NCBI RefSeq assembly: GCF_022808865.1
Contig: NZ_JAKZLB010000001.1
Location: 310,001-374,000, forward strand
Source: Geothrix oryzisoli
GTDB lineage: Bacteria; Acidobacteriota; Holophagae; Holophagales; Holophagaceae
Reading direction: 5' to 3'
Length of the DNA stretch: 64,000 nucleotides
In this document: piece by piece, positions 58,113-61,756 of the stretch
Layout of the letters: each line of letters opens with the position of its first letter
Position numbering within the stretch: the stretch's first letter is position 1
Notes under the pieces: generated by a model
Databases searched by the model: none
The model's input: only the letters and a program-made list of their open reading frames with translations
Told to the model about the DNA's origin: nothing
Made by a program: the position numbers and the translations under genes

Positions 58113-58778
58113 TTATTCTACGGAATCGCCGTGCAGGTAGGTGTGCTTGGCGCTGTGGCCTTCGAGGATGAAGAGGACTTCCTCGGCGATGTTGGTGGCT
58201 TCGTCCGCGATGCGTTCCCAGTTCTTGATGACGAGGATCAGGTGGCTGGCCCGCTCGATGCACAGGGGATCCGCCAGCATGATGCGCAGCAGGTCCCGGT
58301 AGATCTTCCCGTAGAGGGCGTCCACGCTGTCATCGCTCAGGATGACGGCGTGGGCCAGGGCCGCGTCATTGCCCACGAAGGCATCCACCGCACGTCGGAC
58401 CATGCCCCGGGTCTCCGTGCCCAACTGCTCGAGGTCATTCCCGGCCAGGATGGGCGGATGGACCATGGCCACTCGGCGGGCGATGTTGCAGCAGTGGTCG
58501 CCGATGCGCTCGAGTTCGGGGATGATCTTGAGGCTGGAGGCGATGCGGCGCAGGTCGGAGGCCGCCGGGGCGTGGAGGGCCAGGAGGTCGATGCACTGCT
58601 GGTCGAGTCTCAGCTCCCACTCGTCCATGCGGCGGTCGAGCAGGTTCACCTGCTCGGCCTTGGCCGGCGAGGGCTCCGCCAGCGCCTGGATGGTCAGTTC
58701 GATCATCTCCTCGGCCACCCCGGCCATGGCCATGATGCCTTCCCGGAGGGCCTTGAGTTCCGTGTCGAACAGCCGCAT
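58113..58778 (-). CDS. phoU: Phosphate signalling regulator PhoU
   Basis: Negative regulator that links the Pst transporter to PhoR. The 221-residue protein has two PhoU helical repeats with the metal-binding E-R-x-x-D-x-x-x-N pattern: ELERIGDHCCNIARR and NWERIADEATNIAEE. ATG 58778 shares its first base with the pstB stop (TGATG), so the genes are coupled. It lies 14 bases before phoB. Confidence 0.94.
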   Translation of the reverse strand: MRLFDTELKALREGIMAMAGVAEEMIELTIQALAEPSPAKAEQVNLLDRRMDEWELRLDQQCIDLLALHAPAASDLRRIASSLKIIPELERIGDHCCNIARRVAMVHPPILAGNDLEQLGTETRGMVRRAVDAFVGNDAALAHAVILSDDSVDALYGKIYRDLLRIMLADPLCIERASHLILVIKNWERIADEATNIAEEVLFILEGHSAKHTYLHGDSVE

Positions 58779-59560
58779 CAGCCGAACCTCCCCGTGATGT
58801 AGTCTTCCGTCATCTGCACCCTTGGTGTCGTGAAGATGCGTTCCGTCAGGTCCATCTCCACCAGTCTGCCCAGCCAGAAGAAGGCCGTGTAGTCGCTCAC
58901 GCGGGCCGCCTGCTGCATGTTGTGGGTGACGATCACGATGGTGAGGTTCTCCTTCAGGTCGGTGATGAGATCCTCGATCTTGGCGGTGGCGATGGGATCC
59001 AGAGCCGAGCAGGGCTCGTCCATCAGCAGCACCTCGGGGTTCACCGCCAGGGCGCGGGCGATGCAGAGCCGCTGCTGCTGGCCGCCGCTCATTCCGGTGG
59101 CGCTTTCCTTGAGGCGATCCTTCACTTCATCCCAGAGGGCCGCCTTGCGCAGGGCGTCCTCCACGATGCCATCCAGACTCGACCGGTCGGTGACGCCGAA
59201 CAGGCGGGGCCCGAAGGCCACGTTCTCGTAGATGGACTTGGGAAAGGGGTTCGGTTTCTGGAATACCATGCCCACGCGCCGGCGGAGGTCGACTTCGTCG
59301 ATGCCGCCACGGTAGATGTCCACACCGTCGATCAGCATGTCGCCGCTGACGTTCACGGTGCTGGAGACCTCGTGGATGCGGTTGAAGCACTTGAGGAAGG
59401 TGCTCTTGCCACAGCCGCTGGGGCCGATGATGGCCGTGACGCGCTCGGCATGGATGTCCATGGAGAGCCCGTCAAGGACCTTCTTGGTGCCATAGCTGAA
59501 GGCCATGTTGCGGACGGACAGCTTGATGGGCTTGGTTTCGGGGAGGGTCGGGGTGAGCAT
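58778..59560 (-). CDS. pstB: Phosphate ABC transporter ATP-binding protein PstB
   Basis: ATPase of the high-affinity phosphate importer. The 260-residue protein has Walker [10 protein letters not shown] (46-54), the signature [15 protein letters not shown] and Walker [13 protein letters not shown], then the H-loop IVVTHN-type [10 protein letters not shown]. Its ATG is three bases from the boundary of a 269-bp inverted-repeat element, so the only ribosome-binding candidate (ACAGG) lies inside the terminal repeat. Confidence 0.95.
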
Positions 59561-59563
59561 TTA

Positions 59564-59832
59564 GGGCCTGTTTTCAACATGGGACGCGGCCGCGACGGGT
59601 CCAGCCACGTGATCCAGGAAGGCGGTGGCCGCCGGGCGATGCGGGACATCGTTCAAGGCCACCAACGCACCTGGGCGCGTGGCTGGGCCCGTCCCGGAGG
59701 GCGAGGGGCGGCGCCCGGCGCGATACTGCGTCGAGCTCCTCGTCAATAGTACCGCTATTGTCATCGTCGCTTTCCTTGTCTCGCTTGGGCGGCGCCCCAC
59801 GCGCGGCTCCGTCTCATGTTGAAAAAAGGCCC
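59564..59832. mobile_element. Inverted-repeat element (MITE-like) inside the pst operon
   Basis: The ends 59564-59594 and 59832-59802 match as imperfect inverted repeats over 31 bases (27 identical). Both share GGGCCT-x-TTTTCAACATG. A long internal stem pairs 59594-59609 with 59678-59693 (one G-U pair), enclosing the shorter pair GGTGGCC (59624) and GGCCACC (59657). A second hairpin, CAATAG/CTATTG, lies at 59744-59760. No transposase and no clear target duplication were seen. The right end forms the last codons of pstA (SGLFST). Not coding as far as can be seen. Confidence 0.6.
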
Positions 59833-60710
59833 GAACGGGTCCGTCGTCGGATGGCGCGGTCCACGAGGCGGACCAGCAGATTCAAAGTGAGCAGTACCAG
59901 GATCACCACTGCGGCGGTGCCCGCGGCGATCTCCCGCGCATCGGGCAGGGTGCCGTCCGAGGTGACATACCAGAGGTGCACGGACAGCGTCTCACCAGGC
60001 ACGGTCAGGCGGAAGTCCGGGAAATGGGCGCTGGCATTGGTGCCGGCGGTGAAGACCAGGATGGCGCTTTCGCCGAAGGCCCGGCCCGCGGTGAGCACCA
60101 GGCCCGTCAGGATGCCCGTGGCCGCGTAGGGCAGGGTCACCTTCAGGATGGTCTGGAGCTTGGTGGCGCCCAGGCCGTAGCTGGCCTCCTTCAGCTCCCG
60201 GGGGACGGCCAGCAGGCTGACCTCGGTGACGCGGGTGATGACGGGGATGTTCAGCAGGGCCAGGGTGAGGGCACCGGAGCGGATGGAGAAGCTCCAGCCC
60301 ATGGCCTGCACGAAGACGATCATGCCGAAGAGGGCCAGCACGATGGAGGGGGTGGCCGCGAGGGTTTCGATGCAGAGCCGCAGGAAGTTCAGCATCCGGC
60401 CCTTGCCCGCATATTCGGCCATGTAGACGCCCGCCCCCAGCCCCACCGGCAGCGAAAGCCCTAGGGAGAGGACCACCAGGTAGAGCGAGTTGAAGATCTG
60501 GGGCTTGATGCCGCCGCCGGCATCCAGGGTCTCCGGCATTTTCGTGAGGAAGCCCAGATTCAGGACCGGCCACCCCTGCTTGAGGATGGCGCCCACGAAG
60601 ACGACCAGCACGAGGACGAACAGGATCGCGAGGCCCCAGAGGACACCGCGCATCAGGCGGTCGACGAACTTCGAGGTTCGCGATCGGCGGAAGGTCAGCA
60701 CCGGGGTCAT
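59814..60710 (-). CDS. pstA: Phosphate ABC transporter permease PstA
   Basis: Inner-membrane subunit of the phosphate importer, 298 residues with six membrane helices. It has the permease loop signature (ELKEASYGLGATKLQTI, then GRAFGESAILVF). ATG 60710 overlaps the pstC stop (TGATG). The last six residues, SGLFST, are encoded by the terminal repeat of the adjacent element, so the original C terminus may have been altered. Confidence 0.93.
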   Translation of the reverse strand: MTPVLTFRRSRTSKFVDRLMRGVLWGLAILFVLVLVVFVGAILKQGWPVLNLGFLTKMPETLDAGGGIKPQIFNSLYLVVLSLGLSLPVGLGAGVYMAEYAGKGRMLNFLRLCIETLAATPSIVLALFGMIVFVQAMGWSFSIRSGALTLALLNIPVITRVTEVSLLAVPRELKEASYGLGATKLQTILKVTLPYAATGILTGLVLTAGRAFGESAILVFTAGTNASAHFPDFRLTVPGETLSVHLWYVTSDGTLPDAREIAAGTAAVVILVLLTLNLLVRLVDRAIRRRTRSGLFST

Positions 60711-61756
60711 CACGCCTCCTTGCCGCGGCCCAGCCGCCGGGTGGCCAGGATCAGGACCATGGTCAGCAGGTAGAGCAGGAGACCCATGGCGAAGAGGACG
60801 TTGTTCCAGGGACTGCCCGCCGGGGTGTTGGGCAGCTCCTGCACCAGTTCCGTGGTGAGGGTCGCCGCCGGCGTGAACAGGGCCCGGAGGAAGGGAGCCC
60901 GGTCGGTGGACTCCCGCATGAGGGCCATCCACTGGGGGTTGTTCCCGATGACCATCTGCACGGCCATGGCCTCGCCGATGGCGCGCCCCAGGCCCAGCAC
61001 CGCGGCGGTCAGCAGGCGGGGCCGGGCGGCGGGGATGAGCACATGCCAGATGGCCTGCCAGCGGCTGGAACCCAGGGCCTGGGCGCCCTCATCCAGGCTG
61101 GTCGGCAGGGATTCGAAGGCGTCGGTCGACAGGCTCACGATGGTGGGCACGATCATGACGGCCAGGATCAGGGCGGCCACGGCGAAGCCGGAGGCCGGGG
61201 CCTCCGCGAGCCAGGTGCCGCTGACGAAGGGAAGCACCACCGTGAGCCCGAAGATCCCGTAGACCACGGAAGGGATGCCCACCAGCAGGTCCATCACCTG
61301 GCGCATCAGGTTCCGCATCCAGGTCGGGGCCAGCTTGGCGATGAACACACCGGTGAGGATGCCGGCCGGGGCGGCGATGAGCAGGGCCAGGCCCGTGACA
61401 CCCAGGGAGCCGGCGATGAAGGGCACGATGCCGAAGTGGTCCGAGGAGGGCGCCCAGTCCGTCGACAGAAAGACTTCGGAGAGGCTGAGGGTCCTTCCAG
61501 TGTTGCCCGCCACGGGCCAGAAGGCCGCCAGGCCCCGGGAGGCCAGGAAGAAGAGGATGCCGCCGATGAGGCCGACCACGAGCAGGCTGCAGGCCAGGAA
61601 GGCCAGATGCGCCCATCGGTCGGAGAGCCGGTGGAACCGGCTGTGCTGGAGAACGGGCGCTCCCGTCGCGGCGAAAGGGGGCTCCTGCCCGGCTTCCATG
61701 GGAACGCCGCCTCCGGTGGGGGCGGCGGTGAGGGCGGCTTCTGGCGCATCGGGCAT
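60710..61756 (-). CDS. pstC: Phosphate ABC transporter permease PstC
   Basis: Second permease subunit, 348 residues from ATG 61756. A cytoplasmic N-terminal tail of about 50 residues precedes six membrane helices (LAFLACSLLVVGLIGGILFF first). The transport loop reads SLDEGAQALGSSRWQAI, then GRAIGEAMAVQMV. An ATG at 61825 in frame overlaps the pstS stop, but a hairpin at 61776-61802 lies between the two, so the later start is preferred. Confidence 0.88.
   Translation of the reverse strand: MPDAPEAALTAAPTGGGVPMEAGQEPPFAATGAPVLQHSRFHRLSDRWAHLAFLACSLLVVGLIGGILFFLASRGLAAFWPVAGNTGRTLSLSEVFLSTDWAPSSDHFGIVPFIAGSLGVTGLALLIAAPAGILTGVFIAKLAPTWMRNLMRQVMDLLVGIPSVVYGIFGLTVVLPFVSGTWLAEAPASGFAVAALILAVMIVPTIVSLSTDAFESLPTSLDEGAQALGSSRWQAIWHVLIPAARPRLLTAAVLGLGRAIGEAMAVQMVIGNNPQWMALMRESTDRAPFLRALFTPAATLTTELVQELPNTPAGSPWNNVLFAMGLLLYLLTMVLILATRRLGRGKEA

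Follow-up and report, generated by a model that had tools for sequence, protein, structure and literature searches.

Several described families of small bacterial repeats resemble the element analyzed here. Correia/NEMIS, ERIC, and Nezha are likewise small and non-coding, bear terminal inverted repeats, and have strong secondary structure; to our knowledge they are lineage-restricted, whereas the present element has one arm module common to several phyla, with ends that differ. The Chunjie MITE of Geobacter uraniireducens (235 bp) also has many intergenic copies of variable size, and a full-length copy sits in a phosphate-uptake operon (PMC10969869); the title of the original paper, as cited there, describes the operon structure as undisturbed. 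The resemblance is one of description, and the host phyla differ as far as can be told; Chunjie could be a member of the arm superfamily described below. REP elements of the GTAG and CGTC families are intergenic palindromes present in several phyla, often as inverted pairs, and the CGTC REPs have no known transposase (PMC3733652). REPs measure 20–40 bp and carry an unpaired tetranucleotide tag. An assignment to the GTAG or CGTC families was rejected because the elements described here are 158–276 bp long, with terminal repeats and a TA duplication.

The element lies at the pstA–pstB junction of the window, the whole 64-kb stretch of Geothrix oryzisoli DNA that was analyzed, in an operon whose products NCBIfam identifies as PstA, PstB, PstC, and PhoU. 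It is shorter than 500 bp and non-coding, the ORFs that cross it being chance frames. Its interior was described with two covariance models: R1, built from arm 2 only and from genus sequences only, and R2, trained without the window's genus on sequences from Pseudomonadota, Omnitrophota, and one further MAG. The junction is laid out as follows:

58778..59560, − strand: pstB (TIGR00972), frame and ancestral start codon intact
59562..59563, no strand: TA, left copy of the target duplication, as in the TA flanks of other copies
59564..59832, + strand: whole MITE-like element, 269 bp, orientation set by arm 2 with CTCCTCG on the + strand
59564..59594, + strand: left terminal inverted repeat, beginning GGGCCTGTTTTCAACATGG and adjoining pstB, 27/31 against the right end
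59593..59692, − strand: arm 1, inverted homologue of arm 2 (R1, 42.6 bits, E 8e-9 in 601 bases; R2, 13.5 bits)
59693..59701, + strand: mini-hairpin CCC-GGA-GGG between the arms, from the predicted fold
59702..59803, + strand: arm 2, with the cross-phylum core CTCCTCG-hairpin-TCGTCG plus CCTTG (R1, 109 bits; R2, 28.9 bits)
59744..59760, + strand: arm 2 tip hairpin CAATAG-TACCG-CTATTG, covarying helix 12
59802..59832, − strand: right terminal inverted repeat, coding for the final PstA residues and the pstA stop
59833..59834, no strand: GA, presumed from the sequence to be the decayed right copy of the TA duplication
59814..60713 (start approximate), − strand: pstA (TIGR00974), with the SGLFST C-terminus from the insertion

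Insertion at the junction: The initial annotation had described 31-bp imperfect inverted repeats at the two ends, and these indeed match at 27 of 31 positions (59564–59594 and 59802–59832); lengthened to 34 nt, they are 85% identical. The pstA stop (59814–59816) and the pstB start (59560) are 253 nt apart, a gap that had been judged out of place. It is: ten same-genus genomes with an orthologous pst operon have an empty site, in which the pstA TGA overlaps the pstB ATG as TGATG. The insertion struck this TGATG junction, retaining the pstB start codon (ATGCTC, common to most relatives) and extending PstA by SGLFST, six residues encoded by the element, where the relatives end in IRRRTR and a stop. 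The element's end thus supplies the last pstA codons, as the initial annotation had read it; upstream of the pstB ATG, the other end offers only a weak AGG.

The pst copy is flanked by TA and GA, and the empty site differs in one or two further bases. Because the flanks read TA and GA, we call the target duplication decayed at this copy; the GA at 59833..59834, as a mutated TA copy, would change the TAG stop regenerated in pstA to TCG. In the sibling copy L006, the sequence reads GCCTA, a 335-bp element, and TAGCC, versus GCCTAGCCTTG at the empty site in genome G012, which gives a TA duplication, and the leading G of the element rebuilds a TAG stop. TA is present on both sides in 34 of the 55 GG-ended copies. 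Of 44 sides with a rebuilt stop, 30 have it in the frame of an open stretch of 100 codons or more, versus an average of 17.5 for the other two frames; in this GC-rich background, the in-frame stops at element sides are suggestive of stop-codon rebuilding.

The window genome holds about 15 dispersed copies (16 BLAST matches, some elements matching twice), and the arm model finds 22 arms there, with the same minus/plus arm pairs recurring. Of 25 genomes of the genus that were searched, the window genome among them, 22 have copies; at the same search sensitivity, 16 genomes from other genera of the class have none. The dispersed copies, the empty sites, the sibling TA duplication, and an IS, described below, whose ends agree with those of the element bear out the earlier suggestion of a non-autonomous transposable element. 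From these comparisons, the element is very probably a MITE, non-autonomous and transposase-dependent, inserted at the overlapping pstA stop and pstB start.

Variants of the element occur as well. In the window genome, a sister subfamily (L008–L011, L013, L014) has ends GAGTGCCTAACAAAA and TNA-like direct repeats (TTA/TTA). Longer variants of 335–337 bp are found at L006, L146, L148, and L152; where the arms of L006 meet, there are ~66 bp containing two further small hairpins. Bare end-to-end palindromes of 23–58 bp, TA-flanked and arm-less, are located at L119:1519, L120:1508, L124:1781, and L115:3004.

Candidate mobilizer: A PF01609 search found no intact transposase in the window genome, and no copy of the IS described here was detected in it. 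G019, a genome of the same genus, contains this 861-bp IS in several copies; the IS has ends GGGCCTGTTTTCAAAGTC...GACTTTGAAAACACACCC, TA flanks, and two overlapping ORFs spanning 1–117 and 106–251. The ORFs are 84–91% identical to a related transposase at L109 that matches NF033580 (IS5 family, 276 bits) as well as PF13340 and PF01609. ISs of the IS427 group are 832–865 bp long with mostly 2-bp DRs, and the G019 IS shares the features of that group, namely a length of ~850 bp, overlapping ORFs, and a 2-bp duplication (PMC3281130). The first 14 bases of the element, GGGCCTGTTTTCAA, are those of the 861-bp IS, and the ~17-bp ends are equal. Between the MITE and the IS only these ends, with the TA flanks, are shared; the MITE lacks a transposase, and no arms were seen in the IS. 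Terminal repeats were not recognized at three other transposase loci. Because the ends and the TA flanks agree, the 861-bp IS5-family (IS427-like) IS is the likely mobilizer, and an IS427-type transposase, that of G019 or a similar one, would have moved the element in trans. The operon would still work after insertion into the overlapping stop and start, since TA targets favor stop codons, the first G of the element rebuilds TAG, and the frames survive. A 4.8-kb composite transposon at L109:2230-7014 (G011:C25), with TA-flanked ends GGGTCTGTTTTCA, has an intact IS5-family transposase at one end, a decayed copy at the other, and a 1036-residue repeat-rich protein between them.

Architecture of the arms: To judge from the model matches, the interior of the element consists of one ~100-bp arm present twice, in opposite orientations. 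The interior stem described earlier, 59594–59609 with 59678–59693, forms part of a longer imperfect arm (59590–59630 with 59657–59697), and the small hairpin at 59744–59760 is the tip of arm 2. The strong folding that had been proposed is borne out against dinucleotide shuffles, with z = -10.7 on the + strand and -7.6 on the − strand, and no shuffle was as stable. The stems also covary: among 31 diverse copies, 58 of 86 pairs, terminal repeats included, have changed at both positions, and pairing holds in 94.8% of cells. The covariation score is 0.418; shuffling lowers it to 0.156, and slid structures do not exceed 0.105, in statistics computed on related copies and uncorrected for kinship. 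In helix 12, at the tip of arm 2, five of six pairs change on both sides. Whether a copy starts with GGGCCTG, GAGTGCCTAAC, GGAGCCTGCCGC, or GAGGGTGTAGCC, its opposite end carries the matching sequence, at a mostly near-constant spacing of 266–272 bp.

The arm is also found far from the window's genus. On the 64-kb window, R2 recovers arm 2 as its only hit (E 7.2e-5); it also matches the genome from which the window comes (E 3.7e-5). Within that genome's phylum, R2 finds the arm in 55 of 247 genomes, from 36 of 140 genera. R1, run on 185 genomes from the class to which a Pseudomonas genome belongs, hits 5 of them, the best E being 2e-7. An arm-tip pattern yielded at least 120 stretches in public genomes; the 80 matches listed fall mainly in Pseudomonas and other Pseudomonadota, and also in Omnitrophota and a Saprospiraceae MAG (Bacteroidota). 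The loci that this pattern selects are a biased sample, on which R1 gives mostly modest scores (best 5e-6). The elements mostly measure 158–162 bp with one arm or 260–276 bp with two, mostly with TA flanks, and the distance from the core to the right end is nearly fixed, mostly 62–66 nt. Gammaproteobacterial two-arm elements keep the between-arm mini-hairpin, as CCCGAAGGG or CCCTTCGGG at the same position. By these sequence comparisons, the arm is a superfamily present across several phyla, with ends that are lineage-specific and self-matching.

Neither Rfam nor the open-access literature searched holds a name for this superfamily. The element has no match in Rfam 15 at the gathering score; nine loci that contain relatives returned only one glycine riboswitch and one tRNA, both elsewhere; and the core sequence strings retrieved nothing on bacterial repeats from open-access text. 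The Pseudomonas repeat families R6/R200 (Silby 2009) may include the Pseudomonas form. In G290 (Pseudomonas sp. ok272), ~16 TIR pairs are nearly the same in spacing and sequence, a pattern that points to a recent expansion of the one-arm element. A scan of viral contigs with a looser core pattern gave 34 matches, all resembling coincidences in coding sequence, and was discounted; a plasmid collection queried with two family members at distant sensitivity gave no match.

Folded strand or neutral palindrome: In 41 one-arm elements, mismatched pairs able to wobble number 31 on the + strand and 116 on the − strand. In the window's genus, arm 1 shows 31 versus 12, the direction expected of an inverted arm, and no bias is seen in arm 2 (13/15) or at the ends (19/25); p-values for these strand counts are indicative only, because the copies are related. 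The accumulation of wobble pairs on one strand in the one-arm elements suggests that the folded single strand matters. The arm most likely acts as a folded single strand, either as ssDNA during transposition or replication or as RNA, and a protein would recognize it at the conserved internal loops; we consider the chances of such recognition about even. Neutral covariation, in which template-switch correction of quasi-palindromes maintains complementary arms and the structure is unselected, is unlikely. It would account for the covariation of both the terminal repeats and the arms, for loop variants such as CCCTTCGGG and CCCGAAGGG that resemble flipped hairpin loops, and for a genus with no overall strand bias. 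Blind correction, however, would erase internal loops, and CTCCTCG/CTCGTCG and GCGTTG/CCTTG are unpaired and conserved across lineages. The nearly fixed arm-to-end spacing and the strand-biased wobble of the one-arm elements likewise speak against the neutral reading.

The conservation of the arm across phyla, and not of the ends, might also reflect a dedicated structure-specific recombinase that reads the arm and moves the whole superfamily instead of an IS5-type transposase. This is improbable: the ends and TA flanks agree with those of the same-genus IS, and the bare TA-flanked palindromes exist, so that ends alone may suffice. We give equally little credence to the view that the pst operon has co-opted the element as a cis-regulatory RNA controlling how much PstB is made, for although the fold is very stable, lies between genes that overlap in relatives, and has a terminal stem that would bring the pstA stop beside the pstB start, the element is dispersed elsewhere, scans of it for sigma-70 promoter-like and terminator-like sites found nothing, Rfam has no match, gene orientation around 61 loci of other lineages shows no preference (14 versus 15), which argues against selection within neighboring mRNAs, and the lack of any such insert in the pst operons of ten relatives refutes the locus-bound RNA regulator offered in the initial annotation.

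MITE interiors are usually seen as debris between the ends. In the family of the pst element, the interior is recognizable across phyla and the ends differ, which implies that the arm serves the element or that a host factor reads it. We tentatively envisage, as a possibility short of an even chance, a phylum-spanning non-autonomous superfamily built on a ~100-nt hairpin, whose folded strand, with its conserved internal loops and set distance from the ends, would be recognized by a host or transposition protein and whose ends would co-evolve with the local IS that provides the transposase. Hundreds of covarying copies make the question of arm function testable, and TA targeting, together with a leading G that rebuilds TAG, provides a simple reason for the tolerance of such insertions by operons.
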